Source: Henricia sp. BOLD:AAB3569 (taxonomy: Eukaryota > Echinodermata > Asteroidea > Spinulosida > Echinasteridae). From it: a DNA stretch of 64,000 nucleotides. Positions 17,867 through 64,000 of the stretch are shown piece by piece. The notes under the pieces are model-generated. The model was not told where the DNA came from. It saw only the letters and a program-made list of their open reading frames with translations, and did not search any database. The stretch spans positions 62,001-126,000 of the forward strand of contig JBBELK010000029.1 of assembly GCA_037783545.1 (NCBI GenBank), given 5' to 3'. Made by a program: the position numbers and the translations under genes. Positions within the stretch are counted from its first letter, which is position 1. Each line of letters opens with the position of its first letter.

Positions 17867-17897
17867 CCGGTGTATTCAATGTGGTATGGTCGTAGAC
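17867..17897 (-). pseudogene. 5S rRNA gene fragment (nt 1-31)
   Basis: The 5' 31 nt of the 5S gene interrupted by the 1.3-kb insertion, from GTCTACGACC to ACACCGG. It is the exact continuation of the fragment ending at 16560. Confidence 0.93.
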
Positions 17898-21500: not shown

Positions 21501-22335
21501 TTTTACTAAAAACAAAAGTGCCTACGACACTCGGTATTCCCAGGTGGTCTCCCACCGAGGTACTGACCGAGCCCAACGTTGCTTAACTGCGGTGATCAGA
21601 CGGGAACCGGTGTATTCAATGTGGTATGGTCGTAGACGAATGCTTAACAGGTTTGCGTAATGTTAAACGTTTGCTGAAGAACAATATTTTACTCGACAAA
21701 ACAAAAGTGCCTACGACACTCGGTATTCCCAGGTGGTCTCCCACCGAAGTACTGACCGAGCCCAACGTTGCTTAACTGCGGTGATCAGACGGGAACCGGT
21801 GTATTCAATGTGGTATGGTCGTAGACGAAAGCTTAACAGGTTTGCGTAATTTGAAACGTTTACAGAAGAACAATATTTTACTAAAAACAAAAGTGCCTAC
21901 GACACTGGGTATTCCCAGGTGGTCTCCCACCGAAGTACTGACCGAGCCCAACGTTGCTTAACTGCGGTGATCAGACGGGAACCGGTGTATTCAATGTGGT
22001 ATGGTCGTAGACGAATGCTTAACAGGTTTGCGTAATGTTAAACGTTTACTGAAGAACAATATTTTACTCGACAAAACAAAAGTGCCTACGACACTCGGTA
22101 TTCCCAGGTGGTCTCCCACCGAAGTACTGACCGAGCCCAACGTTGCTTAACTGCGGTGATCAGACGGGACCGGTGTATTCAATGTGGTATGGTCGTAGAC
22201 GAAAGCTTAACAGGTTTGCGTAATTTGAAACGTTTACAGAAGAACAATATTTTACTAAAAACAAAAGTGCCTACGACACTCGGTATTACCAGGTGGTCTC
22301 CCACCGAAGTACTGACCGAGCCCAACGTTGCTTAA
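18554..22335. repeat. higher-order repeat pair, 3554-bp spacing (19 units)
   Basis: A unit lacking one A in the gggaaccgg segment and followed by ggtattacc occurs at 18554-18781 and again at 22108-22335, exactly 3554 bp apart, with similar neighbours. The same 3554-bp step separates two type C cassettes (36976 and 40530). Confidence 0.7.
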
Positions 22336-41130: not shown

Positions 41131-41559
41131 AAACAATATTTTACTTAAAACAAAAGTGCCTACGACACTCGGTATTCCCAGGTGGTCTCCCACCGAAGTA
41201 CTGACCGAGCCCAACGTTGCTTAACTGCGGTGATCAGACGGGAACCGGTGTATTCAATGTGGTATGGTCGTAGACGAAAGCTTAACAGGTTTGCGTAATT
41301 TGAAACGTTTACAGAAGAACAATATTTTACTAAAAACAAAAATGCCTACGACACTCGGTATTCCCAGGTGGTCTCCCACCGAAGTACTGACCGAGCCCAA
41401 CGTTGCTTAACTGCGGTAATCAGACGGGAACCGGTGTATTCAATATGGTATGGTCGTAGACGAAAGCTTAACAGGTTTGCGTAATTTGAAACGTTTACAG
41501 AAGAACAATATTTTACTAAAAACAAAAGTGCCTACGACACTCGGTATTCCCAGGTGGTC

Positions 41560-44500: not shown

Positions 44501-44940
44501 AGAACAATATTTTACTCGACAAAACAAAAGTGCCTACGACACTCGGTATTCCCAGGTGGTCTCCCACCGAAGTACTGACCGAGCCCAACGTTGCTTAACT
44601 GCGGTGATCAGACGGGAACCGGTGTATTCAATGTGTATGGTCGTAGACGAAAGCTTAACAGGTTTGCGTAATTTGAAACGTTTACAGAAGAACAATATTT
44701 TACTAAAAACAAAAGTGCCTACGACACTCGGTATTCCCTGGTGGTCTCCCACCGAAGTACTGACCGATCCCAACGTTGCTTAACTGCGGTGATCAGACGG
44801 GAACCGGTGTATTCAATGTGGTATGGTCTTAGACGAATGCTTAACAGGTTTGCGTAATTTTAAACGTTTACTGAAGAACAATATTTTACTCGACAAAACA
44901 AAAGTGCCTACGACACTCGGTATTCCCAGGTGGTCTCCCA
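41560..44940. repeat. nine-unit tandem duplication, 2 x 1688 bp
   Basis: Private variants recur exactly 1688 bp apart: cgtatacgaatg (41829/43517), taacatgtttgcg (42596/44284), a one-base deletion giving aatgtgtatgg (42944/44632), attccctggtgg (43047/44735) and ggtcttagacg (43140/44828). I saw no difference between the two halves by eye, so this is a very recent duplication. Outer limits are approximate. Confidence 0.9.
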
Positions 44941-47900
44941 CCGAAGTACTGACCGAGCCCAACGTTGCTTAACTGCGGTGATCAGACGGGAACCGGTGTA
45001 TTCAATGTGGTATGGTCGTAGACGAAAGCTTAACAGGTTTGCGTAATTTGAAACGTTTACAGAAGAACAATATTTTACTAAAAACAAAAGTGCCTACGAC
45101 ACTCGGTATTCCCAGGTGGTCTCCCACCGAAGTACTGACCGAGCCCAACGTTGCTTAACTGCGGTGATCAGACGGGAACCGGTGTATTCAATGTGGTATG
45201 GTCGTAGACGAAAGCTTAACAGGTTTGCGTAATTTGAAACGTTTACATAAGAACAATATTTTACTAAAAACAAAAGTGCCTACGACACTCGGTATTCCCA
45301 GGTGGTCTCCCACCGAAGTACTGACCGAGCCCAACGTTGCTTAACTGCGGTGATCAGACGGGAACCGGTGATTCAATGTGGTATGGTCGTAGACGAAAGC
45401 TTAACAGGTTTGCGTAATTTGAAACGTTTACAGAAGAACAATATTTTACTAAAAACAAAAGTGCCTACGACACTCGGTATTCCCAGGTGGTCTCCCACCG
45501 AAGTACTGACCGAGCCCAACGTTGCTTAACTGCGGTGATCAGACGGGAACCGGTGTATTCAATGTGGTATGGTCGTAGACGAATGCTTAACAGGTTTGCG
45601 TAATTTGAAACGTTTACTGAAGAACAATATTTTACTCGACAAAACAAAAGTGCCTACGACACTCGGTATTCCCAGGTGGTCTCCCACCGAAATACTGACC
45701 GAGCCCAACGTTGCTTAACTGCGGTGATCAGACGGGAACCGGTGTATTCAATGTGGTATGGTCGTAGACGAAAGCTTAACAGGTTTGCGTAATTTGAAAC
45801 GTTTACAGAAGAACAATATTTTACTAAAAACAAAAGTGCCTACGACACTCGGTATTCCCAGGTGGTCTCCCACCGAAGTACTGACCGAGCCTAACGTTGC
45901 TTAACTGCGGTGATCAGACGGGAACCGGTGTATTCAATGTGGTATGGTCGTAGACGAATGCTTAACAGGTTTGCGTAATTTGAAACGTTTACTGAAGAAC
46001 AATATTTTACTCGACAAAACAAAAGTGCCTACGACACTCGGTATTCCCAGGTGGTCTCCCACCGAAGTACTGACCGAGCCCAACGTTGCTTAACTGCGGT
46101 GATCAGACGGGAACCGGTGTATTCAATGTGTATGGTGGTAGACGAAAGCTTAACAGGTTTGCCTAATTTGAAACGTTTACAGAAGAACAATATTTTACTA
46201 AAAACAAAAGTGCCTACGACACTCGGTATTCCCAGGTGGTCTCCCACCGAAGTACTGACCGAGCCCAACGTTGCTTAACTGCGGTGATCAGACGGGAACC
46301 GGTGTATTCAATGTGGTATGGTCGTAGACGAATGCTTAACAGGTTTGCGTAATTTTAAACGTTTACTGAAGAACAATATTTTACTCGACAAAACAAAAGT
46401 GCCTACGACACTCGGTATTCCCAGGTGGTCTCCCACCGAAGTACTGACCGAGCCCAACGTTGCTTAACTGCGGTGATCAGACGGGAACCGGTGTATTCAA
46501 TGTGGTATGGTCGTATACGAAAGCTTAACAGGTTTGCGTAATTTGAAACGTTTACAGAAGAACAATATTTTACTAAAAACAAAAGTGCCTACGACACTCG
46601 GTATTCCCAGGTGGTCTCCCACCGAAGTACTGACCGAGCCCAACGTTGCTTAACTGCGGTGATCAGACGGGAACCGGTGTATTCAATGTGGTATGGTCGT
46701 AGTCGAAAGCTTAACAGGTTTGCGTAATTTGAAACGTTTACAGAAGAACAATATTTTACTAAAAACAAAAGTGCCTACGACACTCGGTATTCCCAGGTGG
46801 TCTCCCACCGAAGTACTGACCGAGCCCAACGTTGCTTAACTGCGGTGATCAGACGGGAACCGGTGTATTCAATGTGGTATGGTCGTAGACGAAAGCTTAA
46901 CAGGTTTGCGTAATTTGAAACGTTTACAGAAGAACAATATTTTACTAAAAACAAAAGTGCCTACGACACTCGGTATTCCCAGGTGGTCTCCCACCGAAGT
47001 ACTGACCGAGCCCAACGTTGCTTAACTGCGGTGATCAGACGGGAACCGGTGTATTAAATGTGGTATGGTCGTAGACGAATGCTTAACAGGTTTGCGTAAT
47101 TTTAAACGTTTACTGAAGAACAATATTTTACTCGACAAAACAAAAGTGCCTACGACACTCGGTATTCCCAGGTGGTCTCCCACCGAAGTACTGACCGAGC
47201 CCAACGTTGCTTAACTGCGGTGATCAGACGGGAACCGGTGTATTCAATGTGGTATGGTCGTAGACGAAAGCTTAACAGGTTTGCGTAATTTGAAACGTTT
47301 ACAGAAGAACAATATTTTACTAAAAACAAAAGTGCCTACGACACTCGGTATTCCCAGGTGGTCTCCCACCGAAGTACTGACCGAGCCCAACGTTGCTTAA
47401 CTGCGGTGATCAGACGGGAACCGGTGTATTCAATGTGGTATGGTCGTAGACGAAAGCTTAACAGGTTTGCGTAATTGTAAACGTTTACAGAAGAACAATA
47501 TTTTACTAAAAACAAAAGTGCCTACGACACTCGGTATTCCCAGGTGGTCTCCCACCGAAGTACCGACCGAGCCCAACGTTGCTTAACTGCGGTGATCAGA
47601 CGGGAACCGGTGTATTCAATGTGGTATGGTCGTAGACGAATGCTTAACAGGTTTGCGTAATTTTAAACGTTTACTGAAGAACAATTTTTTACTAAAAACA
47701 AAAGTGCCTACGACACTCGGTATTCCCAGGTGGTCTCCCACCGAAGTACTGACCGAGCCCAACGTTGCTTAACTGCGGTAATCAGACGGGAACCGGTGTA
47801 TTCAATGTGGTATGGTCGTAGACGAAAGCTTAACAGGTTTGCGTAATTTGAAACGTTTACAGAAGAACAATATTTTACTAAAAACAAAAGTGCCTACGAC

Positions 47901-50900
47901 ACTCGGTATTCCCAGGTGGTCTCCCACCGAAGTACTGACCGAGCCCAACGTTGCTTAACTGCGGTGATCAGACGGGAACCGGTGTATTCAATGTGGTATG
48001 GTCGTAGACGAAAGCTTAACAGGTTTGCGTAATTGTAAACGTTTACAGAAGAACAATATTTTACTAAAAACAAAAGTGCCTACGACACTCGGTATTCCCA
48101 GGTGGTCTCCCACCGAAGTACCGACCGAGCCCAACGTTGCTTAACTGCGGTGATCAGACGGGAACCGGTGTATTCAATGTGGTATGGTCGTAGACGAATG
48201 CTTAACAGGTTTGCGTAATTTTAAACGTTTACTGAAGAACAATATTTTACTCGACAAAACAAAAGTGCCTACGACACTCGGTATTCCCAGGTGGTCTCCC
48301 ACCGAAGTACTGACCGAGCCCAACGTTGCTTAACTGCGGTGATCAGACGGGAACCGGTGTATTCAATGTGGTATGGTCGTAGACGAAAGCTTAACAGGTT
48401 TGCGTAATTTGAAACGTTTACAGAAGAACAATATTTTACTAAAAACAAAAGTGCCTACGACACTCGGTATTCCCAGGTGGTCTCCCACCGAAGTACTGAC
48501 CGAGCCCAACGTTGCTTAACTGCGGTAATCAGACGGGAACCGGTGTATTCAATGTGGTATGGTCGTAGACGAAAGCTTAACAGGTTTGCGTAATTTGAAA
48601 CGTTTACAGAAGAACAATATTTTACTAAAAACAAAAGTGCCTACGACACTCGGTATTCCCAGGTGGTCTCCCACCGAAGTACCGACCGAGCCCAACGTTG
48701 CTTAACTGCGGCGATCAGACGGGAACCGGTGTATTCAATGTGGTATGGTCGTAGACGAATGCTTAACAGGTTTGCGTAATTTTAAACGTTTACTGAAGAA
48801 CAATATTTTACTCGACAAAACAAAAGTGCCTACGACACTCGGTATTCCCAGGTGGTCTCCCACCGAAGTACTGACCGAGCCCAACGTTGCTTAACTGCGG
48901 TGATCAGACGGGAACCGGTGTATTCAATGTGGTATGGTCGTAGACGAATGCTTAACAGGTTTGCGTAATTTGAAACGTTTACTGAAAAACAATATTTTAC
49001 TCGACAAAACAAAAGTGCCTACGACACTCGGTATTCCCAGGTGGTCTCCCACCGAAGTACTGACCGAGCCCAACGTTGCTTAACTGCGGTGATCAGACGG
49101 GAACCGGTGTATTCAATGTGGTATGGTCGTAGACGAAAGCTTAACAGGTTTGCGTAATTTGAAACGTTTACAGAAGAACAATATTTTACTAAAAATAAAA
49201 GTGCCTACGACACTCGGTATTCCCAGGTGGTCTCCCACCGAAGTACTGACCGAGCCCAACGTTGCTTAACTGCGGTGATCAGACGGGAACCGGTGTATTC
49301 AATGTGGTATGGTCGTAGACGAATGCTTAACAGGTTTGCGTAATTTGAAACGTTTACTGAAGAACAATATTTTACTCGACAAAACAAAAGTGCCTACGAC
49401 TCTCGGTATTCCCAGGTGGTCTCCCACCGAAGTACTGACCGAGCCAAACGTTGCTTAACTGCGGTGATCAGACGGGAACCGGTGTATTCAATGTGGTATG
49501 GTCGTAGACGAAAGCTTAACAGGTTTGCGTAATTTGAAACGTTTACAGAAGAACAATATTTTACTAAAAACAAAAGTGCCTACGACACTCGGTATTCCCA
49601 GGTGGTCTCCCACCGAAGTACTGACCGAGCCCAACGTTGCTTAACTGCGGTGATCAGACGGGAACCGGTGTATTCAATGTGGTATGGTCGTAGACGAATG
49701 CTTAACAGGTTTGCGTAATTTTAAACGTTTACTGAAGAACAATATTTTACTCGACAAAACAAAAGTGCCTACGACACTCGGTATTCCCAGGTGGTCTCCC
49801 ACCGAAGTACTGACCGAGCCCAACGTTGCTTAACTGCGGTGATCAGACGGGAACCGGTGTATTCAATGTGGTATGGTCGTAGACGAAAGCTTAACAGGTT
49901 TGCGTAATTTGAAACGTTTACAGAAGAACAATATTTTACTAAAAACAAAAGTGCCTACGACACTCGGTATTCCCAGGTGGTCTCCCACCGAAGTACTGAC
50001 CGAGCCCAACGTTGCTTAACTGCGGTGATCAGACGGGAACCGGTGTATTCAATGTGGTATGGTCGTAGACGAAAGCTTAACATGTTTGCGTAATTTGAAA
50101 CGTTTACAGAAGAACAATATTTTACTAAAAACAAAAGTGCCTACGACACTCGGTATTCCCAGGTGGTCTCCCACCGAAGTACTGACCGAGCCCAACGTTG
50201 CTTAACTGCGGTGATCAGACGGGAACCGGTGTATTCAATGTGGTATGGTCGTAGACGAAAGCTTAACAGGTTTGCGTAATTTGAAACGTTTACAGAAGAA
50301 CAATATTTTACTAAAAACAAAAGTGCCTACGACACTCGGTATTCCCAGGTGGTCTCCCACCGAAGTACTGACCGAGCCCAACGTTGCTTAACTGCGGTGA
50401 TAAGACGGGAACCGGTGTATTCAATGTGGTATGGTCGTAGACGAAAGCTTAACAGGTTTGCGTAATTTGAAACGTTTACAGAAGAACAATATTTTACTAA
50501 AAACAAAAGTGCCTACGACACTCGGTATTCCCAGGTGGTCTCCCACCGAAGTACTGACCGAGCCCAACGTTGCTTAACTGCGGTGATCAGACGGGAACCG
50601 GTGTATTCAATGTGGTATGGTCGTAGACGAATGCTTAACAGGTTTGCGTAATGTTAAACGTTTACTGAAGAACAATATTTTACTCGACAAAACAAAAGTG
50701 CCTACGACACTCGGTATTCCCAGGTGGTCTCCCACCGAAGTACTGACCGAGCCCAACGTTGCTTAACTGCGGTGATCAGACGGGAACCGGTGTATTCAAT
50801 GTGGTATGGTCGTAGACGAAAGCTTAACAGGTTTGCGTAATTTGAAACGTTTACAGAAGAACAATATTTTACTAAAAACAAAAGTGCCTACGACACTCGG

Positions 50901-52196
50901 TATTACCAGGTGGTCTCCCACCGAAGTACTGACCGAGCCCAACGTTGCTTAACTGCGGTGATCAGACGGGAACCGGTGTATTCAATGTGGTATGGTCGTA
51001 GACGAATGCTTAACAGGTTTGCGTAATGTTAAACGTTTACTGAAGAACAATATTTTACTCGACAAAACAAAAGTGCCTACGACACTCGGTATTCCCAGGT
51101 GGTCTCCCACCGAAGTACTGACCGAGCCCAACGTTGCTTAACTGCGGTGATCAGACGGGAACCGGTGTATTCAATGTGGTATGGTCGTAGACGAAAGCTT
51201 AACAGGTTTGCGTAATTTGAAACGTTTACAGAAGAACAATATTTTACTAAAAACAAAAGTGCCTACGACACTCGGTATTCCCAGGTGGTCTCCCACCGAA
51301 GTACTGACCGAGCCCAACGTTGCTTAACTGCGGTGATCAGACGGGAACCTGTGTATTCAATGTGGTATGGTCGTAGACGAATGCTTAACAGGTTTGCGTA
51401 ATTTGAAACGTTTACTGAAGAACAATATTTTACTCGACAAAACAAAAGTGCCTACGACACTCGGTATTCCCAGGTGGTCTCCCACCGAAGTACTGACCGA
51501 GCCCAACGTTGCTTAACTGCGGTGATCAGACGGGAACCGGTGTATTCAATGTGGTATGGTCGTAGACGAAAGCTTAACAGGTTTGCGTAATTTGAAACGT
51601 TTACAGAAGAACAATATTTTACTAAAAACAAAAGTGCCTACGACACTCGGTATTCCCAGGTGGTCTCCCACCGAAGTACTGACCGAGCCCAACGTTGCTT
51701 AACTGCAGTGATCAGACGGGAACCGGTGTATTCAATGTGGTATGGTCGTAGACGAATGCTTAACAGGTTTGCGTAATTTGAAACGTTTACTGAAGAACAA
51801 TATTTTACTCGACAAAACAAAAGTGCCTACGACACTCGGTATTCCCAGGTGGTCTCCCACCGAAGTACTGACCGAGCCCAACGTTGCTTAACTGCGGTGA
51901 TCAGACGGGAACCGGTGTATTCAATGTGGTATGGTCGTAGACGAAAGCTTAACAGGTTTGCGTAATTTGAAACGTTTACAGAAGAACAATATTTTACTAA
52001 AAACAAAAGTGCCTACGACACTCGGTATTTCCAGGTGGTCTCCCACCGAAGTACTGACCGAGCCCAACGTTGCTTAACTGCGGTGATCAGACGGGAACCG
52101 GTGTATTCAATGTGGTATGGTCGTAGACGAAAGCTTAACAGGTTTGCGTAATTTGAAACGTTTACAGAAGAACAATATTTTACTAAAAACAAAAGT

Positions 52197-52236
52197 GCCT
52201 ACGACACTCGGTATTCCCAGGTGGTCTCCCACCGAA
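52197..52236 (-). pseudogene. 5S rRNA gene fragment (nt 79-118), 3' flank of LINE copy 2
   Basis: Contains box C and the 3' strand of helix I. On the plus strand it ends accgaa and is followed directly by the T11 of the LINE poly(A) tail. Nucleotide 78 (g on the plus strand) is missing compared with the flank of copy 3. The rest of this gene is at 58217-58293. Confidence 0.95.
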
Positions 52237-52267
52237 TTTTTTTTTTTCTGAGAGGAGTTAGACTCCA

Positions 52268-52273
52268 TTTATT
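52268..52273 (-). promoter_or_regulatory. AATAAA polyadenylation signal, LINE copy 2
   Basis: AATAAA on the sense strand ends about 20 nt before the A11 tail, with a small GGAGT/ACTCC hairpin in between. The spacing is standard for Pol II 3' end formation and argues that the LINE RNA is a polyadenylated Pol II transcript. Confidence 0.8.
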
Positions 52274-52380
52274 AACACATCTCCATGCATACAGTATCTA
52301 CAATTTACGTACTTCGTACATAATTAAGTTACTTTATATGTATGTATATGATAAAAATTGCAACAATAGGACGTCTGAAA

Positions 52381-55300
52381 CTAGAATGCATAGTTCAATT
52401 GTTCCCCATCCATCGAACAAATAGCCCTATTTTGAGTGTAAATTTGTTCAAAATCCCTGCGGTGTAATCTTTTGACTTCCATACGTAAGTATTGTTTTAG
52501 TTGTCTTTTATATACACCAAGTATGTCAGGAACGTATGTATTTTTCTCTTGCGCTGCAGACAGAGATATTTGAACCCTTAAGTTCCAAATAACACGAAAA
52601 ACCTTACAAAAAAGCACACAAGCAGTACTATTAATTCCTGGACCAATACCAAGGACTCTACAAATATCATTTAAATAAAAATGTTTGTCATCACCGTATT
52701 TTCGGAGCAAATTTTCAACAAAATTCCATGTCTCAAAGGTTTTACAGCAATAAATAAAAAGGTGCTCTGTAGTCTCTTGATTTTCATTACAAATTAAACA
52801 TCTGTCATTTTCAGTAATCCCTATTTTATACAATAGATCTCTTGTTGGCAAAATCCTGTGTTTAATTTTAAACCATAAATCTCTATCATTTGGATCAATT
52901 AATTTACTATATCCCCTTTTCCAACTTAAGGTCCAGTTCGGAGGAGAAGTCCTATTAAAAATTATTTCCCATTTTTGTTCGGCTTTGGGTTTTACAAAGG
53001 TCTTTATTACCAAGTTTCTATACATGAATTTCATTAATGATTTGTTAAGAACATAATAATCTGCATCATTTTCATAATTACTAATTTCTAGCATATTGCA
53101 TATATGGTTTTCTGGTCCACTCCTTGTTTCCTTTAAAAGGTTTGGTCTAATATTAACTCTTAAATCATTCATTGTTCTGGTAACAGTACCAGGTCTAATA
53201 TCATATTGTTTGGAAATCAATGTGAGTGACTTGAGTTTATCACCTGACATAACATCACCTAGTTTTTTTATTCCATTTTCACTTAACATTTTACCAACAA
53301 GTTTTTTTTGTTTGTTGCCCGTTAGTAGGGCATTTTGCCACAGTGGGACGTTGTGTGCTTCTTGCTTACAGGAGATAACTAAGTTAATACGTCCTCCGCA
53401 GTTATGAAATGCTTTAATTACCTCTCGATAAAATTCACTGGTATTTAAGGCTGTAGGGTAATTCCCTAAAACATACCAACCTAAACCTTTAGCACTAGCT
53501 CTCTTGATCCAATAATCAAAATATTGTTTCCATTTTCCAGTACATGTGCTAAAACGGGTGAACCAATTTAATTTCAGACAAGTTAATCTATGTTTTACAT
53601 TCAAAACCTCTGTACCTCCTCTTTCCTTAGGACCTCTGACTGTATCTCTGTTAATTTTATCAGGTTTACTGTTCCAATAAAAGTCCCAAATACATTTATC
53701 CATTTGTTTTATTGAATCATCATTACATGGCACAACACTTCCCACATAATTAATACTAGCTCCAGCATAAGTGTTGATGATGACTGCTTTTCCTTTTAAA
53801 GTTAAATTCCTTCCCTTAAAACTGTTAAAAACACTCTTAATCTTGTTTATTCTGGGGTCCCAGTTGTCAGACTGGGTTACTTCATTGCCAATATAAACCC
53901 CTAAAATCTTAATCTTGTCATTGACCCAATTATACCCCCCTGGGCAATCTGTCCTCGATTTCCAGGTTCCAAGCCAGAGCCCTGTTGATTTCTGAATATT
54001 TGTTTTGAATCCCGTGCCTTCATTGTATATATTTAGAATGTTTGCTAAAATCGGAAAATCTTCATCACGAGAAATAAAAACCGTCGTGTCATCAGCATGC
54101 TGTATTAATTTGACTTGATCATCAGTGTATGGAATTGGGATACCCGTTAAGTTTGTATTATTTCTAATTAGACATGCCAATCCTTCTGCACAGATGGTGT
54201 ACAAAAGCGGTGACAAGGGGCAACCCTGCCGGATACCTCTGGTTACGTCAAAGGGACGAGTTATATAGTTATTCACAATGACGCAACTTTTCGGTCTGCT
54301 GTACAAAACCATTATGTAATCAATGAACCCCTGAGGAATGCCGAGCTTATTCATAATTTCATACATGTAATCCCATTCTATCCTGTCAAAGGCTTTTTCT
54401 TGATCAATACTTAGGAGCCCCCCTTGTTTATTGTTCATGTTAAGGTCATCTACAACATCTCTTAGAATCATTAGATTATCGTGAATATTTCTACCTGATA
54501 CCCCACTGCTTTGCTCTTCTCCAATCAAATTAGGCATACATTTGCGAAGTCGGTTAGTTAAGACTTTAGCAAGTATTTTGTAATCTACTGTCAATAAACT
54601 AATTGGACGCCAATTTTTTAGGTCTTCCCTATCCCCTTTGTTTTTGTATATTAATCTAATAAGAGCAGTGCTCATTGTATTTGGAAGTGAACCTCCTTCT
54701 TTGCATTCTTGAAAAACACTCAAAAGATCATCTTTAAGAATAGTCCAAAACTTGAGATAAAACTCTACTGTCAGCCCATCAATACCGGGTGATTTATCTT
54801 TATTCATTTGCTGGAGAGCAAGTGTAATTTCAGCTCCTGAAATATTACTTTCCAAAATCTCAGGTTCCTCGATTTCGTGTGAGTTGACATCATCTATAAT
54901 TGTTTGTTGCTCATGGGGGTCAGTGCCATTAGTAGAATATAACTGGGAGTAAAACTCATTGATACGCTTAACAATATATCTAAATTCTGTAAGTGGGACG
55001 CCCTCAGCGTCTTTTATAGTTGCCATAGCATTGTTCTTGGTTCTTTGTTTTTCGATAGCAAGAAAGAACTTGCTAGGTTTTTCACCTTCAGACTTATTTT
55101 TCAAATGTGTCCTTACACGAGCCTTTTCCCACTCGTTAGTTTCAATGGTTTTCAGCTGTTGTTCAAGGCGATTTAATTCATCAGTATTATGGTTTGGATT
55201 ATTTGTGAGATCCCTATACTTCTTTTGAACAGCCTTTGTCTGTTGATTATATTTAAGTGATTTTTCTTTACCATACTCTTTAAGAATTTCTTTAAGTTTG

Positions 55301-56184
55301 CTTTTCCCCATTTCCCACCAGTCAGTGATGGTGTTATAGCAGAATTGTTTGGTTTGCCAGTATTTCCAAAAATGTGTTACTCTGTTAACACATTCCGGAT
55401 CTTCAAGATTATCGTTATTACACATCCATCTGCCTGGTCCGCTTACTGTTTTTTTGTCAATTAACTTCATTAAAATGAGGTTGTGATCAGAAAACCCGAC
55501 AGCATTAATAAGTATGTGTTCAAGGTTGCATATTAATTTGGCCGACATTAGGAAGTAATCAATTCTGCTACTTGTTTTAGTACTTTTATTGTAATGTGTG
55601 TAGCCCAACTCACTAGGATGGATTGAACGCCACACATCAATCAAATTATTTTGTTGAACCAATTTTAGAAAGGCAATACTACTCTTTTCCTTACTCATAC
55701 CAAGATCAATATTACAATTGAAATCTCCTCCAATAATTAGATTTTCAGAATCAACAAGGACATCACAAAGTTTCCCAAAAAAGCAGTTTCTGGGGCCGAG
55801 AGCATTTGGAGCATACACTGAAGCAACAGTAATTTTTTGGTTGTCCAAGTTTAGTTCGCCAATAATAAATCTGCCTTCATCATCTCGCTTGATGTTGGTG
55901 AGTTTTGCTGTAATTTTATTCGAAATAAGAATTCCAACCCCCCTTGAATTTCTCAGTCCATGACTAAAAGCGATTTCCCCACCCCACTGCTTACTCCAAA
56001 AGCTCTCGTCCTCTTTTTCACTGTGAGTCTCTTGCAAAAGAGCAACATCGATTTTCCTTCTATGCATGTAATTAAATATTGTATCTCTTTTCATATTATT
56101 TCTCAATCCATTGCAATTTAGTGTTACTACATTAAGCGCCATAATGAAGAGACTCACAGTGAATAAAACACCTTTCATAAACAT
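52381..56184 (-). CDS. LINE ORF2 protein: APE endonuclease + reverse transcriptase (copy 2, intact)
   Basis: A 1267-residue protein that nicks target DNA and reverse transcribes the element RNA onto the nick. Endonuclease, residues 15-240: LNCNGLRN (22-29), catalytic E52 in QETH, Y124 in SVYAPN, D154 and N156 in GGDFNCN, R207/D209 in SRIDYF, S232-D233-H234. Reverse transcriptase, about 450-800: LKNWRPISLL (522-531), motif A D594 in SIDQEKAFD, motif B RGIRQGCPLSP (649-659), and motif C HADD (696-699), with H where most LINEs have Y or F. C-terminal zinc motif C1129-X2-C1132-X8-H1141-X4-C1146, typical of L1-like elements. The start is the first ATG after the ORF1 end; M15 (MALNVV), right before the endonuclease, is an alternative. 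The length is normal for L1/Tx1 ORF2. I see no inactivating change. Confidence 0.96.
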   Translation of the reverse strand: MFMKGVLFTVSLFIMALNVVTLNCNGLRNNMKRDTIFNYMHRRKIDVALLQETHSEKEDESFWSKQWGGEIAFSHGLRNSRGVGILISNKITAKLTNIKRDDEGRFIIGELNLDNQKITVASVYAPNALGPRNCFFGKLCDVLVDSENLIIGGDFNCNIDLGMSKEKSSIAFLKLVQQNNLIDVWRSIHPSELGYTHYNKSTKTSSRIDYFLMSAKLICNLEHILINAVGFSDHNLILMKLIDKKTVSGPGRWMCNNDNLEDPECVNRVTHFWKYWQTKQFCYNTITDWWEMGKSKLKEILKEYGKEKSLKYNQQTKAVQKKYRDLTNNPNHNTDELNRLEQQLKTIETNEWEKARVRTHLKNKSEGEKPSKFFLAIEKQRTKNNAMATIKDAEGVPLTEFRYIVKRINEFYSQLYSTNGTDPHEQQTIIDDVNSHEIEEPEILESNISGAEITLALQQMNKDKSPGIDGLTVEFYLKFWTILKDDLLSVFQECKEGGSLPNTMSTALIRLIYKNKGDREDLKNWRPISLLTVDYKILAKVLTNRLRKCMPNLIGEEQSSGVSGRNIHDNLMILRDVVDDLNMNNKQGGLLSIDQEKAFDRIEWDYMYEIMNKLGIPQGFIDYIMVLYSRPKSCVIVNNYITRPFDVTRGIRQGCPLSPLLYTICAEGLACLIRNNTNLTGIPIPYTDDQVKLIQHADDTTVFISRDEDFPILANILNIYNEGTGFKTNIQKSTGLWLGTWKSRTDCPGGYNWVNDKIKILGVYIGNEVTQSDNWDPRINKIKSVFNSFKGRNLTLKGKAVIINTYAGASINYVGSVVPCNDDSIKQMDKCIWDFYWNSKPDKINRDTVRGPKERGGTEVLNVKHRLTCLKLNWFTRFSTCTGKWKQYFDYWIKRASAKGLGWYVLGNYPTALNTSEFYREVIKAFHNCGGRINLVISCKQEAHNVPLWQNALLTGNKQKKLVGKMLSENGIKKLGDVMSGDKLKSLTLISKQYDIRPGTVTRTMNDLRVNIRPNLLKETRSGPENHICNMLEISNYENDADYYVLNKSLMKFMYRNLVIKTFVKPKAEQKWEIIFNRTSPPNWTLSWKRGYSKLIDPNDRDLWFKIKHRILPTRDLLYKIGITENDRCLICNENQETTEHLFIYCCKTFETWNFVENLLRKYGDDKHFYLNDICRVLGIGPGINSTACVLFCKVFRVIWNLRVQISLSAAQEKNTYVPDILGVYKRQLKQYLRMEVKRLHRRDFEQIYTQNRAICSMDGEQLNYAF

Positions 56185-56202
56185 TAAGGATAATTTACCA
56201 TT

Positions 56203-56440
56203 TTATTTTTTCTGGGTTGATGTACACTCGCGACCAACTGGTTGTGCTTGAATTTCTCTGTTCCTGCCTCTGCCCCGTCCTCTGGGTTGTGGGTAGGGTG
56301 TTGTTCTCCCAATTCGTTTCTTTTGACTTTTTAGTTCTTTCCATGGTCCTTGCTCATCACTTCCCTCGGCAGGTACGTTTTCAGGGTTTGTATTTGTTTC
56401 GTGGTGCTTTTCGTGGGTTATTTTCCCAGAGGGGTGTTGA
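56203..56440 (-). pseudogene. detached C-terminal part of ORF1, copy 2
   Basis: This is the continuation of ORF1 beyond the 4-bp deletion, out of frame with the start. It encodes about 80 residues, rich in lysine and with the RGRGRGR tract, ending at TAA (56203-56205). In copy 1 the equivalent segment is in frame with the preceding SWADRV segment, which shows that copy 2 carries the deletion. Confidence 0.8.
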
Positions 56441-58013
56441 CTCGGTCTGCCCAGGATGGAATTGGACTATCCTCGCGGTCGTGACTTTCAGCATCTTGCG
56501 TCGTTTCCATGTCTTCAAAGTCTTCTGCTGTAGGTTCATTTACGGGGGCTTTGGCTGTATACATGTTGTGATCTTCAGGAAGATTTGTGGCTGGAGTGTT
56601 TTTATTTGCTAGTTTGTTCGACTTTTGAACTGGAGTTTTGTCTTGGTTGGTTTTTGAGGGAGTTCCTTTCCCTTTTTGAGTGTTACCCTTCTTGTTGTTC
56701 TTGTCACCTTGACTCTTATCCTCTTTATCTTTGCGAGTGTCCTCTTTATCTTTGCGAGTGTCCTCTTTATCTTTGCGAGTGTCCTCTTTATCTTTGCGGG
56801 TGTCCTTTTTATCTTTGCGAGTGTCCTCTTTATCTTTGCGAGTGTCCTCTGTATCTTTGCGAGTGTCCTTTTTATCTTTGCGAGTGCCCTCCTCATCTTT
56901 GCGAGTGCCCTCCTCATCTTTGCGGGTGCCCTCTTTATCTTTGCGGGTGTCCTCTTTATCTTTGCGAGTGTCCTCTTTATCTTTGCGAGTGTCCTCTTTA
57001 TCTTTGCGAGTGTCCTCTTTATCTTTGCGGGTGTCCTTTTTATCTTTGCGAGTGTCCTCTTTATCTTTGCGTGTGTCCTCTTTATCTTTGCGAGTGTCCT
57101 TTTTATCTTTGCGAGTGTCCTCCTCATCTTTGCGAGTGTCCTCCTCATCTTTGCGAGTGTCCTCCTCATCTTTGCGAGTGTCCTCCTCATCGTTGGTGGT
57201 GTCCTCTCCATCTTTGGTGGTGTCTTGCTCATCTTTGGTGGTGTCTTGCTCATCTTCGGTAGTGTCTTCCTCATCTCTGGTCATGTCCTCCTCGTCCTCT
57301 GTGTTGGTGTCTTCGTCTTGGTTGATATCGTCCTCATCTGAACTTGCATTCTCCTCTTCCGGTATGACAATCGTAGGACTTTCCAGCTCCACCTTTTCCT
57401 GTCGGTCATGCCAAGTTGATCTGTGGTCATAACTACCACAAACAAAGCACCTGCCTTTTAGTTCACAGTCTCTTGCAAAATGGCCTGGTTTCTGACAAAT
57501 TTTGCACGTTTTTTGCTGTCCACGGTATTTCATGGGGAGTGAGAAGCCGGCTATTTTCACAAAACTGGGTATTGGCTTTTTAACATTATTGACTAGCATA
57601 CTCCTGACTCCAGTTGCAATGTTAGGGTCGAAATCATGCACTTGGTGCCTAACATTAACCACAGTCCCGTACGGCAATAATGCACCAATGACGGTATTAT
57701 CGCTCATCTCATAAGGCACCTTTGCGTAAACAACAAGCGAATTTTGAATGTTGGCTCGTTCACATTGCATTAGTAGATCTTGTATGATTAGCCCTCGCTG
57801 AGCTATTTGTTCGCAGTCCCGTTCGTTGTTGAAAGTCACATTGTACCAGCCGCTGTCGAGGGGAGCGATGCATTTTGTGGTTTCTACTGTGCCTAATTCC
57901 TTCCTTATGGCGTCATACACTTCTCTTGAAATTACATTTCCGAGATCCTTCGGGTAAAACTTGATGGTATTCGGTCTCCGTAGTACCTGACGGTTAGCCT
58001 TGGCGGCATACAT
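56418..58013 (-). CDS. LINE ORF1 protein, zinc-knuckle, C-terminally truncated by frameshift (copy 2)
   Basis: 531 residues from the ATG at 58011-58013 (A at -3); an in-frame TTG nine codons upstream would add nine residues. ORF1 proteins of LINEs bind the element RNA in the ribonucleoprotein particle. Numbered from the upstream TTG: an N-terminal domain to about 165, knuckle 1 C179-X2-C182-X4-H187-X4-C192, knuckle 2 C198-X2-C201-X4-H206-X4-H211, an acidic DE-rich stretch about 225-280, then about 22 heptads of the D-T-R-K-D-K-E type. The protein ends SWADRVNTPLGK because a 4-bp deletion near 56440 shifts the frame; the true family C-terminus is about 80 residues longer and basic. The knuckles are intact, so RNA binding may be partly retained. 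Confidence 0.9.
   Translation of the reverse strand: MYAAKANRQVLRRPNTIKFYPKDLGNVISREVYDAIRKELGTVETTKCIAPLDSGWYNVTFNNERDCEQIAQRGLIIQDLLMQCERANIQNSLVVYAKVPYEMSDNTVIGALLPYGTVVNVRHQVHDFDPNIATGVRSMLVNNVKKPIPSFVKIAGFSLPMKYRGQQKTCKICQKPGHFARDCELKGRCFVCGSYDHRSTWHDRQEKVELESPTIVIPEEENASSDEDDINQDEDTNTEDEEDMTRDEEDTTEDEQDTTKDEQDTTKDGEDTTNDEEDTRKDEEDTRKDEEDTRKDEEDTRKDKKDTRKDKEDTRKDKEDTRKDKKDTRKDKEDTRKDKEDTRKDKEDTRKDKEDTRKDKEGTRKDEEGTRKDEEGTRKDKKDTRKDTEDTRKDKEDTRKDKKDTRKDKEDTRKDKEDTRKDKEDTRKDKEDKSQGDKNNKKGNTQKGKGTPSKTNQDKTPVQKSNKLANKNTPATNLPEDHNMYTAKAPVNEPTAEDFEDMETTQDAESHDREDSPIPSWADRVNTPLGK
56722..57186 (-). repeat. 21-bp coding minisatellite in ORF1, copy 2 (about 22 units)
   Basis: Tandem 21-bp units encode alternating acidic and basic heptads. 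The tract has two more units than copy 1. Sub-patterns (DEE, DKE, DKK and EGT variants) mark internal duplications. All units are in frame. Confidence 0.93.
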
Positions 58014-58216
58014 CGTGGCCAAGATGGCGGCTACACGCAAGTCTCCTGTACTTGACCACAGGAAGTAGGGCCAAAGGCCCTCGAAAAACAGTCAATCTCA
58101 CCTCAATCCGGTGTTCTTAGAGTTTGTACTGAAGGTGAAATTATTAGCTGTGCAAAAGGAGCAGGATATAGGCCTCAAAAAGACTTAAAATTAAGAGCCG
58201 AAAAACTATCCGTGTC
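58014..58216 (-). other. LINE 5' UTR, copy 2
   Basis: Same length and nearly the same sequence as in copy 1. The sense strand starts GACACGG with T5 at nt 12-16. Stems are AGGGCC-aaa-GGCCCT at 58067-58081 and CAAGT/ACTTG at 58038-58054. The first base follows 5S nt 77 directly, so both known 5' ends are full length and identical. Confidence 0.75.
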
Positions 58217-58293
58217 TACTGACCGAGCCCAACGTTGCTTAACTGCGGTGATCAGACGGGAACCGGTGTATTCAATGTGGTATGGTCGTAGAC
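58217..58293 (-). pseudogene. 5S rRNA gene fragment (nt 1-77), 5' flank of LINE copy 2
   Basis: The 5' 77 nt of the 5S gene occupied by LINE copy 2, ending ...GGTCAGTA at the element. It keeps box A and the intermediate element but lacks box C. Confidence 0.95.
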
Positions 58294-61169
58294 GAAAGCT
58301 TAACAGGTTTGCGTAATTTGAAACGTTTACAGAAGAACAATATTTTACTAAAAACAAAAGTGCCTACGACACTCGGTATTCCCAGGTGGTCTCCCACCGA
58401 AGTACTGACCGAGCCCAACGTTGCTTAACTGCGGTGATCAGACGGGAACCGGTGTATTCAATGTGGTATGGTCATAGACGAATGCTTAACAGGTTTGCGT
58501 AATTTTAAACGTTTACTGAAGAACAATATTTTACTCGACAAAACAAAAGTGCCTACGACACTCGGTATTCCCAGGTGGTCTCCCACCGAAGTACTGACCG
58601 AGCCCAACGTTGCTTAACTGCGGTGATCAGACGGGAACCGGTGTATTCAATGTGGTATGGTCGTAGACGAAAGCTTAACAGGTTTGCGTAATTTGAAACG
58701 TTTACAGAAGAACAATATTTTACTAAAAACAAAAGTGCCTACGACACTCGGTATTCCCAGGTGGTCTCCCACCGAAGTACTGACCGAGCCCAACGTTGCT
58801 TAACTGCGGTGATCAGACGGGAACCGGTGTATTCAATGTGGTATGGTCGTAGACGAAAGCTTAACAGGTTTGCGTAATTTGAAACGTTTACAGAAGAACA
58901 ATATTTTACTAAAAACAAAAGTGCCTACGACACTCGGTATTCCCAGGTGGTCTCCCACCGAAGTACTGACCGAGCCCAACGTTGCTTAACTGCGGTGATC
59001 AGACGGGAACCGGTGTATTCAATGTGGTATGGTCGTAGACGAAAGCTTAACAGGTTTGCGTAATTTGAAACGTTTACAGAAGAACAATATTTTACTAAAA
59101 ACAAAAGTGCCTACGACACTCTGTATTCCCAGGTGGTCTCCCACCGAAGTACTGACCGAGCCCAACGTTGCTTAACTGCGGTGATCAGACGGGAACCGGT
59201 GTATTCAATGTGGTATGGTCGTAGACGAAAGCTTAACCGGTTTGCGTAATTTGAAACGTTTACAGAAGAACAATATTTTACTAAAAACAAAAGTGCCTAC
59301 GACACTCGGTATTCCCAGGTGGTCTCCCACCGAAGTACTGACCGATCCCAACGTTGCTTAACTGCGGTGATCAGACGGGAACTTGTGTATTCAATGTGGT
59401 ATGGTCGTAGACGAATGCCTAACAGGTTTGCGTAATTTTAAACGTTTACTGAAGAACAATATTTTACTCGACAAAACAAAAGTGCCTACGACACTCGGTA
59501 ATCCCAGGTGGTCTCCCACCGAAGTACTGACCGAGCCCAACGTTGCTTAACTGCGGTGATCAGACGGGAACCGGTGTATTCAATGTGGTATGGTCGTAGA
59601 CGAATGCTTAACAGGTTTGCGTAATGTTAAACGTTTACTGAAGAACAATATTTTACTCGACAAAACAAAAGTGCCTACGACACTCGGTATTCCCAGGTGG
59701 TCTCCCACCGAAGTACTGACCGAGCCCAACGTTGCTTAACTGCGGTGATCAGACGGGAACCGGTGTATTCAATGTGGTATGGTCGTAGACGAAAGCTTAA
59801 CAGGTTTGCGTAATTTGAAACGTTTACAGAAGAACAATATTTTACTCGACAAAACAAAAGTGCCTACGACACTCGGTATTCCCAGGTGGTCTCCCACCGA
59901 AGTACTGACCGAGCCCAACGTTGCTTAACTGCGGTGATCAGACGGGAACCGGTGTATTCAATGTGGTATGGTCGTAGACGAAAGCTTAACAGGTTTGCGT
60001 AATTTGAAACGTTTACAGAAGAACAATATTTTACTAAAAACAAAAGTGCCTACGACACTCGGTATTCCCAGGTGGTCTCCCACCGAAGTACTGACCGAGC
60101 CCAACGTTGCTTAACTGCGGTGATCAGACGGGAACCGGTGTATTCAATGTGGTATGGTCGTAGACGAAAGCTCAACAGGTTTGCGTAATTTGAAACGTTT
60201 ACAGAAGAACAATATTTTACTAAAAACAAAAGTGCCTACGACACTCGCTATTCCCAGGTGGTCTCCCACCGAAGTACTGACCGAGCCCAACGTTGATTAA
60301 CTGCGGTGATCAGACGGGAACCGGTGTATTCAATGTGGTATGGTCATAGACGAATGCTTAACAGGTTTGCGTAATTTTAAACGTTTACTGAAGAACAATA
60401 TTTTACTCGACAAAACAAAAGTGCCTACGACACTCGGTATTCCCAGGTGGTCTCCCACCGAAGTACTGACCGAGCCCAACGTTGCTTAACTGCGGTGATC
60501 AGACGGGAACCGGTGTATTCAATGTGGTATGGTCGTAGACGAAAGCTTAACAGGTTTGCGTAATTTGAAACGTTTACAGAAGAACAATATTTTACTAAAA
60601 ACAAAAGTGCCTACGACACTCGGTATTCCCAGGTGGTCTCCCACCGAAGTACTGACCGAGCCCAACGTTGCTTAACTGCGGTGATCAGACGGGAACCGGT
60701 GTATTCAATGTGGTATGGTCGTAGACGAAAGCTTAACAGGTTTGCGTAATTTGAAACGTTTACAGAAGAACAATATTTTACTAAAAACAAAAGTGCCTAC
60801 GACACTCGGTATTCCCAGGTGGTCTCCCACCGAAGTACTGACCGAGCCCAACGTTGCTTAACTGCGGTGATCAGACGGGAACCGGTGTATTCAATGTGGT
60901 ATGGTCGTAGACGAAAGCTTAACAGGTTTGCGTAATTTGAAACGTTTACAGAAGAACAATATTTTACTAAAAACAAAAGTGCCTACGACACTCGGTATTC
61001 CCAGGTGGTCTCCCACCGAAGTACTGACCGAGCCCAACGTTGCTTAACTGCGGTGATCAGACGGGAACCGGTGTATTCAATGTGGTATGGTCGTAGACGA
61101 AAGCTTAACAGGTTTGCGAAATTTTAAACGTTTACTGAAGAACAATATTTTACTCGACAAAACAAAAGT

Positions 61170-61210
61170 GCCTACGACACTCGGTATTCCCAGGTGGTCT
61201 CCCACCGAAG
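61170..61210 (-). pseudogene. 5S rRNA gene fragment (nt 78-118), 3' flank of LINE copy 3
   Basis: The 3' part of the 5S gene occupied by LINE copy 3. The plus strand reads ccgaag followed directly by T10, so here nucleotide 78 is kept and the insertion is clean. Confidence 0.95.
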
Positions 61211-61242
61211 TTTTTTTTTTCTCTGAGAGGAGTTAGACTCCA

Positions 61243-61248
61243 TTTATT
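61243..61248 (-). promoter_or_regulatory. AATAAA polyadenylation signal, LINE copy 3
   Basis: The same AATAAA as in copy 2, ending 22 nt before the A10 tail. Confidence 0.8.
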
Positions 61249-61355
61249 AACACATCTCCATGCATACAGTATCTACAATTTACGTACTTCGTACATAATT
61301 AAGTTACTTTATATGTATGTATATGATAAAAATTGCAACAATAGGACGTCTGAAA

Positions 61356-63998
61356 CTAGAATGCATAGTTCAATTGTTCCCCATCCATCCAACAAATAGC
61401 CCTATTTTGAGTGTAAATTTGTTCAAAATCCCTGCGGTGTAATCTTTTGACTTCCATACGTAAGTATTGTTTTAGTTGTCTTTTATATACACCAAGTATG
61501 TCAGGAACGTATGTATTTTTCTCTTGCGCTGCAGACAGAGATATTTGAACCCTTAAGTTCCAAATAACACGAAAAACCTTACAAAAAAGCACACAAGCAG
61601 TACTATTAATTCCTGGACCAATACCAAGGACTCTACAAATATCATTTAAATAAAAATGTTTGTCATCACCGTATTTTCGGAGCAAATTTTCAACAAAATT
61701 CCATGTCTCAAAGGTTTTACAGCAATAAATAAAAAGGTGCTCTGTAGTCTCTTGATTTTCATTACAAATTAAACATCTGTCATTTTCAGTAATCCCTATT
61801 TTATACAATAGATCTCTTGTTGGCAAAATCCTGTGTTTAATTTTAAACCATAAATCTCTATCATTTGGATCAATTAATTTACTATATCCCCTTTTCCAAC
61901 TTAAGGTCCAGTTCGGAGGAGAAGTCCTATTAAAAATTATTTCCCATTTTTGTTCGGCTTTGGGTTTTACAAAGGTCTTTATTACCAAGTTTCTATACAT
62001 GAATTTCATTAATGATTTGTTAAGAACATAATAATCTGCATCATTTTCATAATTACTAATTTCTAGCATATTGCATATATGGTTTTCTGGTCCACTCCTT
62101 GTTTCCTTTAAAAGGTTTGGTCTAATATTAACTCTTAAATCATTCATTGTTCTGGTAACAGTACCAGGTCTAATATCATATTGTTTGGAAATCAATGTGA
62201 GTGACTTGAGTTTATCACCTGACATAACATCACCTAGTTTTTTTATTCCATTTTCACTTAACATTTTACCAACAAGTTTTTTTTGTTTGTTGCCCGTTAG
62301 TAGGGCATTTTGCCACAGTGGGACGTTGTGTGCTTCTTGCTTACAGGAGATAACTAAGTTAATACGTCCTCCGCAGTTATGAAATGCTTTAATTACCTCT
62401 CGATAAAATTCACTGGTATTTAAGGCTGTAGGGTAATTCCCTAAAACATACCAACCTAAACCTTTAGCACTAGCTCTCTTGATCCAATAATCAAAATATT
62501 GTTTCCATTTTCCAGTACATGTGCTAAAACGGGTGAACCAATTTAATTTCAGACAAGTTAATCTATGTTTTACATTCAAAACCTCTGTACCTCCTCTTTC
62601 CTTAGGACCTCTGACTGTATCTCTGTTAATTTTATCAGGTTTACTGTTCCAATAAAAGTCCCAAATACATTTATCCATTTGTTTTATTGAATCATCATTA
62701 CATGGCACAACACTTCCCACATAATTAATACTAGCTCCAGCATAAGTGTTGATGATGACTGCTTTTCCTTTTAAAGTTAAATTCCTTCCCTTAAAACTGT
62801 TAAAAACACTCTTAATCTTGTTTATTCTGGGGTCCCAGTTGTCAGACTGGGTTACTTCATTGCCAATATAAACCCCTAAAATCTTAATCTTGTCATTGAC
62901 CCAATTATACCCCCCTGGGCAATCTGTCCTCGATTTCCAGGTTCCAAGCCAGAGCCCTGTTGATTTCTGAATATTTGTTTTGGATCCCGTGCCTTCATTG
63001 TATATATTTAGAATGTTTGCTAAAATCGGAAAATCTTCATCACGAGAAATAAAAACCGTCGTGTCATCAGCATGCTGTATTAATTTGACTTGATCATCAG
63101 TGTATGGAATTGGGATACCCGTTAAGTTTGTATTATTTCTAATTAGACATGCCAATCCTTCTGCACAGATGGTGTACAAAAGCGGTGACAAGGGGCAACC
63201 CTGCCGGATACCTCTGGTTACGTCAAAGGGACGAGTTATATAGTTATTCACAATGACGCAACTTTTCGGTCTGCTGTACAAAACCATTATGTAATCAATG
63301 AACCCCTGAGGAATGCCGAGCTTATTCATAATTTCATACATGTAATCCCATTCTATCCTGTCAAAGGCTTTTTCTTGATCAATACTTAGGAGCCCCCCTT
63401 GTTTATTGTTCATGTTAAGGTCATCTACAACATCTCTTAGAATCATTAGATTATCGTGAATATTTCTACCTGATACCCCACTGCTTTGCTCTTCTCCAAT
63501 CAAATTAGGCATACATTTGCGAAGTCGGTTAGTTAAGACTTTAGCAAGTATTTTGTAATCTACTGTCAATAAACTAATTGGACGCCAATTTTTTAGGTCT
63601 TCCCTATCCCCTTTGTTTTTGTATATTAATCTAATAAGAGCAGTGCTCATTGTATTTGGAAGTGAACCTCCTTCTTTGCATTCTTGAAAAACACTCAAAA
63701 GATCATCTTTAAGAATAGTCCAAAACTTGAGATAAAACTCTACTGTCAGCCCATCAATACCGGGTGATTTATCTTTATTCATTTGCTGGAGAGCAAGTGT
63801 AATTTCAGCTCCTGAAATATTACTTTCCAAAATTTCAGGTTCCTCGATTTCGTGTGAGTTGACATCATCTATAATTGTTTGTTGCTCATGGGGGTCAGTG
63901 CCATTAGTAGAATATAACTGGGAGTAAAACTCATTGATACGCTTAACAATATATCTAAATTCTGTAAGTGGGACGCCCTCAGCGTCTTTTATAGTTGC
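61356..63998 (-). CDS. LINE ORF2 protein, copy 3, partial (residues 388-1267)
   Basis: An open frame of 880 codons running off the window edge; no stop separates it from the edge, and the upstream part presumably encodes the endonuclease as in copy 2. It contains the whole reverse transcriptase (SIDQEKAFD, RGIRQGCPLSP, HADD) and the C-terminal CX2CX8HX4C motif. Differences from copy 2 are few, for example S for F in GTGSKTN and W for S in the CWMDGEQ segment at the C-terminus. As far as visible it is intact and could be a source of active protein. Confidence 0.95.
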   Translation of the reverse strand, partial: ATIKDAEGVPLTEFRYIVKRINEFYSQLYSTNGTDPHEQQTIIDDVNSHEIEEPEILESNISGAEITLALQQMNKDKSPGIDGLTVEFYLKFWTILKDDLLSVFQECKEGGSLPNTMSTALIRLIYKNKGDREDLKNWRPISLLTVDYKILAKVLTNRLRKCMPNLIGEEQSSGVSGRNIHDNLMILRDVVDDLNMNNKQGGLLSIDQEKAFDRIEWDYMYEIMNKLGIPQGFIDYIMVLYSRPKSCVIVNNYITRPFDVTRGIRQGCPLSPLLYTICAEGLACLIRNNTNLTGIPIPYTDDQVKLIQHADDTTVFISRDEDFPILANILNIYNEGTGSKTNIQKSTGLWLGTWKSRTDCPGGYNWVNDKIKILGVYIGNEVTQSDNWDPRINKIKSVFNSFKGRNLTLKGKAVIINTYAGASINYVGSVVPCNDDSIKQMDKCIWDFYWNSKPDKINRDTVRGPKERGGTEVLNVKHRLTCLKLNWFTRFSTCTGKWKQYFDYWIKRASAKGLGWYVLGNYPTALNTSEFYREVIKAFHNCGGRINLVISCKQEAHNVPLWQNALLTGNKQKKLVGKMLSENGIKKLGDVMSGDKLKSLTLISKQYDIRPGTVTRTMNDLRVNIRPNLLKETRSGPENHICNMLEISNYENDADYYVLNKSLMKFMYRNLVIKTFVKPKAEQKWEIIFNRTSPPNWTLSWKRGYSKLIDPNDRDLWFKIKHRILPTRDLLYKIGITENDRCLICNENQETTEHLFIYCCKTFETWNFVENLLRKYGDDKHFYLNDICRVLGIGPGINSTACVLFCKVFRVIWNLRVQISLSAAQEKNTYVPDILGVYKRQLKQYLRMEVKRLHRRDFEQIYTQNRAICWMDGEQLNYAF

Positions 63999-64000
63999 CA

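Follow-up and report, generated by a model that had tools for sequence, protein, structure and literature searches.

A putatively young, L1-like LINE at one nucleotide of the tandem 5S rRNA genes of the sea star Henricia

We analyzed a 64,000-nucleotide stretch of the genome of the sea star Henricia sp. BOLD:AAB3569 (hereafter the window: C29:62001-126000, on contig JBBELK010000029.1 of a 740.7-Mb assembly in 2,104 contigs). Its minus strand is a 5S rDNA array interrupted by three copies, one of them complete in the window, of a ~6-kb long interspersed nuclear element (LINE). Junctions in the window and throughout the genome indicate that this is, with high probability, a young and recently active L1-like LINE with an apurinic/apyrimidinic (APE)-type endonuclease, integrating at a single nucleotide within 5S rRNA genes of the array type. 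Position, orientation, A tails, an intact second open reading frame (ORF2) with endonuclease and reverse transcriptase (EN-RT), and many different host 5S units can all be read directly, and most copies are inserted without target duplication or loss.

Junctions with the 5S gene in the window and in the genome

Both 5' junctions visible in the window (4530/4531 and 58216/58217) lie directly after nucleotide (nt) 77 of 5S (...GTCAGTA/GACACGG, the slash marking the junction). On the 3' side, copy C passes from A10 into C78 (61210/61211), and copy B passes from A11 into T79 (52236/52237), the single base C78 being missing. The element ORFs and the 5S genes both lie on the minus strand (for 5S, as read from the 150 Rfam matches listed of 264). 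An original prediction made from the window alone had placed both 5' junctions at the same base, after nt 77, and the 3' junctions at nt 78/79 and 77/78, with all copies in 5S sense orientation; the junction letters and the strands agree with it on each point. Outside insertions and deletions, copies A, B and C are 99.8-99.9% identical to one another, so that the window by itself is compatible with one duplicated insertion, a scenario that the whole genome largely excludes (see below).

Among 69 candidates from a genome query with the 70-nt 5' end of the element, 40 were scored matches; each of these was retrieved and directly follows 5S nt 77. Exact patterns occurred at 62 places for the last 8 nt of 5S followed by the element start, and at 59 for the element start alone. 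Exact-pattern and scored matches together amount to 65 different 5' ends, spread over 16 contigs, and 64 of these follow nt 77. The 5' flanks were read for 51 of the 65: 50 end at nt 77, two of them (L051 and L053) with a single-nucleotide polymorphism (SNP) in the 8 nt of 5S next to the junction, and one, L052, lies outside 5S. The remaining 14 were assigned by a 19-nt junction pattern that includes 8 nt of 5S.

The 3' ends are nearly as uniform. The exact 26-nt element tail is present 47 times in the genome, and in 43 cases a mostly-A tail runs into TTCGGT, with 5S resuming at nt 78 in 36 and at nt 79 in 7. The other four comprise two that resume at about nt 119 (L053 and L072), one at nt 78 with a SNP (L081) and one outside the set of flanks read (C827:231116). 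When both ends of a 5S copy were read (n = 21), the junction pair was 77/78 in 15 and 77/79 in 4, and 2 copies have lost nt 78 to about nt 118 (~41 bases). Five 3' ends have no known 5' end within 15 kb, or one only at 14 kb; in four of them 5S resumes at nt 78, and in the fifth, L092, at about nt 102. The uninterrupted A run ahead of the 3' junction ranges from A4 (C142:2241227) to A33 (C213:1097252). Tabulating junctions against the 5S gene, as the original prediction had proposed, places most copies at nt 77/78; its claim of a LINE with single-nucleotide 5S specificity holds for 64 of 65 detected 5' ends and, at nt 78 or 79, for 43 of 47 exact 3' ends.

With up to three mismatches allowed, 69 3' ends were found, and all 61 with no or one mismatch share a contig with a 5S-inserted 5' end. 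The original prediction had named a majority of copies outside 5S genes as the outcome that would speak against it; we found young copies only on contigs with 5S insertions. This distribution, at one 5S nucleotide and on 5S contigs, is not the dispersed, largely non-specific one of mammalian L1.

Several copies nevertheless weigh against strict specificity. L052 (C1051:276500-285200) is an old copy outside 5S. The displaced 3' junctions of L053, L072 and L092 indicate that 3' precision is not absolute. Finally, six of the eight 3' ends with 2-3 mismatches are on contigs lacking a 5S-inserted 5' end, and only L052 among them was read. A broadly specific LINE, with copies in 5S only through selection or through the abundance of the arrays, would account for L052 and for the five further divergent 3' ends (Table 1). 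The arrays make up ~6 Mb of 741 Mb (33,557 sites × ~186 bp), yet all 61 closely matching 3' ends are on contigs with 5S-inserted copies, and at the junctions read in 5S the 5' nucleotide and the orientation are always the same. We regard such broad specificity as exceedingly improbable and retain site-specific integration.

L052 itself is flanked by a 13-bp direct repeat with one mismatch (CTGGCTCCAAATG / CTGGTTCCAAATG) and carries an extra TA ahead of the element start, equal to 5S nt 76-77. One possible reading of this single case is that the element RNA begins inside 5S. Two LINE copies are broken by other sequence (L056, ~3.5 kb; L060, 2.3 kb) and a third, L057, matches the element for 348 bp only; these are perhaps nested insertions.

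Descent, age and structure of the copies

The common junction could reflect common descent: one or a few insertions may have been spread through the arrays by unequal crossing-over and gene conversion. The near identity of the window copies fits such a history, as do copies that share both element and flanks. L059 and L078 have the same element and the same flanks on both sides, and L079 and L080 share the element and the 5' flank; L021, L022 and L041-L044 share a 191-bp flank unit. All of these are array or haplotype duplicates and belong with the observations that count against independent integration. Moreover, 5' and 3' flanks correlate with each other among the 21 copies with both ends read (r = 0.56, p = 0.005).

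The flanks as a whole tell a different story. The 5' flanks of 40 copies fall into 28 distinct sequences at 150 bp and 35 at 400 bp. Element identity and 5' flank identity are unrelated among these copies (r = -0.001), and identical 300-bp element heads stand on flanks that are 76-100% identical (128 pairs, mean 94%). A correlation between element and flank was also sought in the 21 both-end copies (off-target L052, loci without both ends and loci above 6.5 kb left out; the ORF1 repeat masked) and was not found for the 5' flank (Mantel r = -0.04, p = 0.52) or the 3' flank (r = 0.17, p = 0.19). The A run differs between copies, and so does the host base at the junction, most copies having nt 78 and others nt 79. 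Because 28 of 40 flanks are distinct and show no relation to the element, the copies probably stem from many separate insertions, even though gene conversion can also diversify flanks. Spread from one or a few insertions thus appears very unlikely, and the many different 5S flanks across the genome do not bear out descent of all window copies from a single insertion, which the original prediction had held to be damaging to it. Separate insertion and array duplication both act, and since duplicates are present, insertion events are fewer than copies. Close counterparts of window copies are found on C455, where L078 matches copy B (element and flanks) and L090 matches copy C (3' flank); C29 and C455 could be two haplotypes, or segments that were duplicated.

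The 21 copies diverge pairwise by 0.60% on average and by 1.16% at most (ORF1 repeat left out). ORF2 is at least 1,244 aa long in 12 of 31 loci scanned, some of which lack a whole element, and is exactly 1,253 aa in eleven; the raw dN/dS of these eleven is 0.40, summed over 55 non-independent pairs. A mean divergence of 0.6% together with many intact ORF2s marks the family as young, as judged from sequence, and suggests recent activity. A sizeable share of the copies read have an interrupted ORF2, a further point on the opposite side.

The features of the window copies are listed in Table 1. Among 5S copies with both ends read, 20 of 21 are 5.8-6.05 kb long and L053 is 5.4 kb; the element ends in an A tract. 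In copies other than B, ORF1 usually has 563-632 aa and in most cases ends in PVGRECTSTQKK. The number of units in its 21-bp repeat differs among copies; copy A also has such an array (window 3076-3627). The best solved relative of ORF2 is human L1 ORF2p (phmmer against PDB, E = 3.9e-96, residues 23-891), and for this reason we classify the element, on sequence similarity, as an L1-like APE LINE. The PDB matches of ORF2 comprise only human L1, L1-derived endonucleases, R2-type elements and one cellular AP endonuclease.

Table 1. Features of the window, and dispersed loci of the genome referred to in the text
Feature	Position or locus	Strand	Evidence
Copy A: 5' part of LINE, ~255-bp internal ORF2 deletion, runs past window edge	1..4530	-	Junction, ORFs, copy comparison
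5S rDNA array, ~255 units, mostly 186/189 bp	4531..52236	-	Rfam, tandem repeat search (TRF), unit intervals
5S nt 79-119, 3' half of copy B target gene, C78 lost	52196..52236	-	Junction letters
Copy B: complete 5S-inserted LINE, 5,980 bp including A11 tail	52237..58216	-	Junctions, ORFs, comparison with genomic copies
A11 tail, copy B	52237..52247	-	Junction letters
ORF2 copy B, 1,253 aa (MALNVV... to stop)	52381..56142	-	ORF list
C-terminal zf-RVT in ORF2	52726..52977	-	Pfam PF13966, E = 3e-9
Reverse transcriptase (RVT_1) in ORF2	53893..54633	-	Pfam PF00078, E = 6.6e-35
APE-type endonuclease in ORF2	55483..56127	-	Pfam PF03372, E = 5.1e-16; aligned to human L1 endonuclease
ORF1 copy B, ATG to stop, 531 aa, end frame-shifted relative to other copies	56418..58013	-	ORF list
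21-bp tandem repeat within ORF1, EDTRKDK-like heptads	56719..57293 (repeat array to 57313)	-	TRF
CCHC zinc knuckle in ORF1	57465..57512	-	Pfam PF00098, E = 1.7e-6, above cut-off
5S nt 1-77, 5' half of copy B target gene	58217..58293	-	Junction letters
5S rDNA array, ~16 units	58217..61210	-	Rfam, TRF
Copy C: 3' part of LINE, 3' junction A10/C78, runs past window edge	61211..64000	-	Junction, copy comparison
Complete dispersed canonical 5S genes	L083, L084, L086, L087 (C161, C525, C340)		Exact pattern match
Five divergent 3' ends, outside the set of flanks read	C698, C1124, C1398, C2, C415		

Two 5S types and a proposed mechanism

The exact array-type target 20-mer occurs 33,557 times in the assembly, a count that may include both haplotypes. 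The canonical metazoan 5S pattern has 6 exact matches, 4 of which are complete genes, identical at 119/119 positions and located in different surroundings. Both counts cover exact matches, with inexact variants outside them. Two of the six canonical matches were set aside, one that diverges after nt 102 (L085) and one that is chimeric at an array edge (L088). The two types differ at 15 of 119 positions, and the insertion bond lies directly beside type-distinguishing bases (CTTCGG in the array type versus CTTGGA). No 5' flank that was read is of the canonical type, which carries no statistical weight because canonical genes are so few.

In the window, an Rfam scan gave 264 matches at or above the gathering score, and all 150 matches listed are to 5S. 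Among 260 intervals, 154 correspond to a unit length of 186 bp and 92 to one of 189 bp; within the array at 4531-52236 the two spacer subtypes seem to be interleaved and not to form blocks.

We considered whether the array is a decayed 5S pseudogene satellite, in which case the LINE would target a satellite and not a functional rRNA gene. The 15 differences from the canonical type would fit decay: they include C for A at nt 49 in the dominant array gene (A49 is found in only 8 window units), and one of 34 Rfam structure pairs is broken. However, the other 33 pairs are intact (one of them, 68-107, with both sides changed), the array-type gene is followed by a terminator-like T run, and the 150 window matches listed score 109.7-111.1 bits (the other 114 of the 264 score lower) against 115.2 for the canonical type. 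We therefore think decay unlikely and continue to regard the target as a 5S rRNA gene.

A mass tandem 5S type with a few dispersed genes of another type (33,557 sites versus 4 complete genes) is a zebrafish-like layout. In the accessible part of one report, the maternal 5S genes of zebrafish are placed on Chr4 and 12 somatic ones on Chr18 (PMC11075544). Gene numbers given in the accessible parts of two others are ~20,000 oocyte and 400 somatic 5S genes for Xenopus, ~9,000 for zebrafish, and for pike ~20,000 by sequencing and >200,000 by slot blot (PMC6562748, PMC5437419). The 33,557 exact array-type sites of Henricia exceed the ~20,000 of Xenopus oocyte 5S and of pike by sequencing, and the pike slot blot gives >200,000. 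Among echinoderms, three functional 5S variants are reported for the sea urchin Paracentrotus, as far as the accessible text goes (PMC6562748). By analogy, the array layout would fit oocyte-type 5S, and the four dispersed canonical genes are a possible somatic-type set. More speculatively, Henricia might be an echinoderm with a dual 5S system like that of zebrafish and Xenopus, in which an array-adapted LINE, if it nicks and repairs the arrays in the germline, possibly helps to drive their expansion; the coupling to oocyte-type amplification would then be ancient in deuterostomes or have arisen at least twice. We offer this only tentatively.

The junctions lend themselves to a mechanism whose steps are drawn from general LINE biology. 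The position of the 3' junction implies that the antisense strand of 5S would be opened between nt 78 and 77 (5'-CCGAAG^TACTGAC-3'), probably by the ORF2 endonuclease, and that the freed 3' end would prime reverse transcription on the poly(A) tail, that is, target-primed reverse transcription. The 5' junction at nt 77 implies in turn that the sense strand would be cut at the same bond, making insertion essentially blunt, and 15 of 21 both-end copies indeed show no duplication or loss; the cDNA would normally be completed to the exact 5' end of the element. In both copies with a larger loss the 5' junction is still at nt 77, which would fit a first nick that can stray downstream. Insertion splits the 5S gene, at what may be a small cost given >33,000 target sites, ~0.2% of which are occupied (64 versus 33,557), and unequal exchange in the array would both duplicate and remove LINE copies. 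The target is of the mass-amplified 5S type, distinct from the few dispersed canonical genes, whose role may lie in other tissues or at other stages.

Related elements and the host

The 5S-specific Mutsu LINEs of zebrafish were reportedly described by Kojima and Fujiwara in 2004 and by Locati et al. in 2017. Separate Mutsu subfamilies reportedly belong to the maternal and to the somatic 5S type, each inserting where the two types are unlike. To our knowledge, 5S-specific LINEs are known only from fish (Mutsu), and we know of no 21-bp repeat array in a Mutsu ORF1. Mutsu shares 5S-gene specificity with the Henricia element. The accessible parts of the sources record these LINEs from zebrafish (PMC3706591, PMC11202950) and give a length of ~5.5 kb with two ORFs and untranslated regions (PMC11202950), and copy B likewise has two ORFs in 5,980 bp. 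The likeness is one of description: Mutsu is hosted by fish, whereas the present element, ~6.0 kb long with its ORF1 repeat array, is hosted by an echinoderm.

R2, which is specific for 28S, has the same kind of single-site rRNA-gene specificity and uses target-primed reverse transcription, which we infer here. R2 carries a restriction-like endonuclease. An endonuclease of this kind (PD-(D/E)xK) is not among the Pfam matches of our element, which has an N-terminal APE domain instead, and R2 entries in PDB score far below L1 (E = 5.9e-25 versus 3.9e-96). Human L1 ORF2p has the same EN-RT order as ORF2 and is alignable over residues 23-891. L1 inserts at many T/A-rich sites; the Henricia element uses one 5S site.

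Keno and other target-specific Tx1-clade LINEs combine, like our element, an APE endonuclease with a multicopy RNA gene target, as described in the accessible parts of the sources (PMC4640811, PMC6136364), but Keno targets U2 snRNA genes and not 5S. An APE-type endonuclease, given as a Tx1/R1-clade property in the accessible part of one source (PMC4640811), is present here, and the likeness to Tx1 is one of domain type. The original prediction had suggested a place in the Tx1 group; what the comparison with solved structures shows is an EN-RT protein of L1-like kind. A Jockey-like LINE of Tribolium freemani is also regular in 5S arrays; it interrupts satellite/5S arrays, and the accessible part of the report does not describe a single-nucleotide 5S target (PMC11202950). 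Dada-5S elements of fish target 5S rRNA genes but are DNA transposons, according to the accessible part of their description (PMC8869645).

Searches for relatives outside the genome found none in IMG/VR (1 pattern stretch), GTDB contigs (6 pattern stretches) or phage records. A 5S-targeting LINE in an echinoderm was not found in the open-access literature searched, mainly as titles and abstract openings, and an exact-sequence literature search with the 5S start gave no match. A 5S-specific LINE is thus a kind of element already known, and the host phylum is probably new within the literature that could be searched.

Insertion into 5S is a safe-haven strategy known before from zebrafish. A young echinoderm family with dozens of junctions from one assembly would provide a second system for comparing target choice, and two 5S types that differ beside the insertion bond would permit a direct comparison of cleavage. 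The family also raises the question of whether 5S-targeting LINEs contribute to the making or upkeep of giant 5S arrays, and its endonuclease is a candidate component of tools for inserting retrotransposons site-specifically at a multicopy site.

The mitochondrial genome bears on the host. A 699-bp COX1 sequence translated with code 9 scored 425.8 bits to the best solved COX1, versus 398.2 bits with code 5, because AAA is then read as Asn and ATA as Ile at positions where these residues are conserved. Code 9 is used by echinoderms and flatworms. On this evidence an echinoderm is the most likely host, and COX1 residues hint at a starfish. The suggestion in the original prediction of a possible new host lineage is therefore supported, the mitochondrial code not being that of fish. 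The assembly has a concatenated mitochondrial contig, C955, with three COX1 genes spaced at a 16,221-bp period, and a single COX1 on C2104, itself 16,221 bp long.

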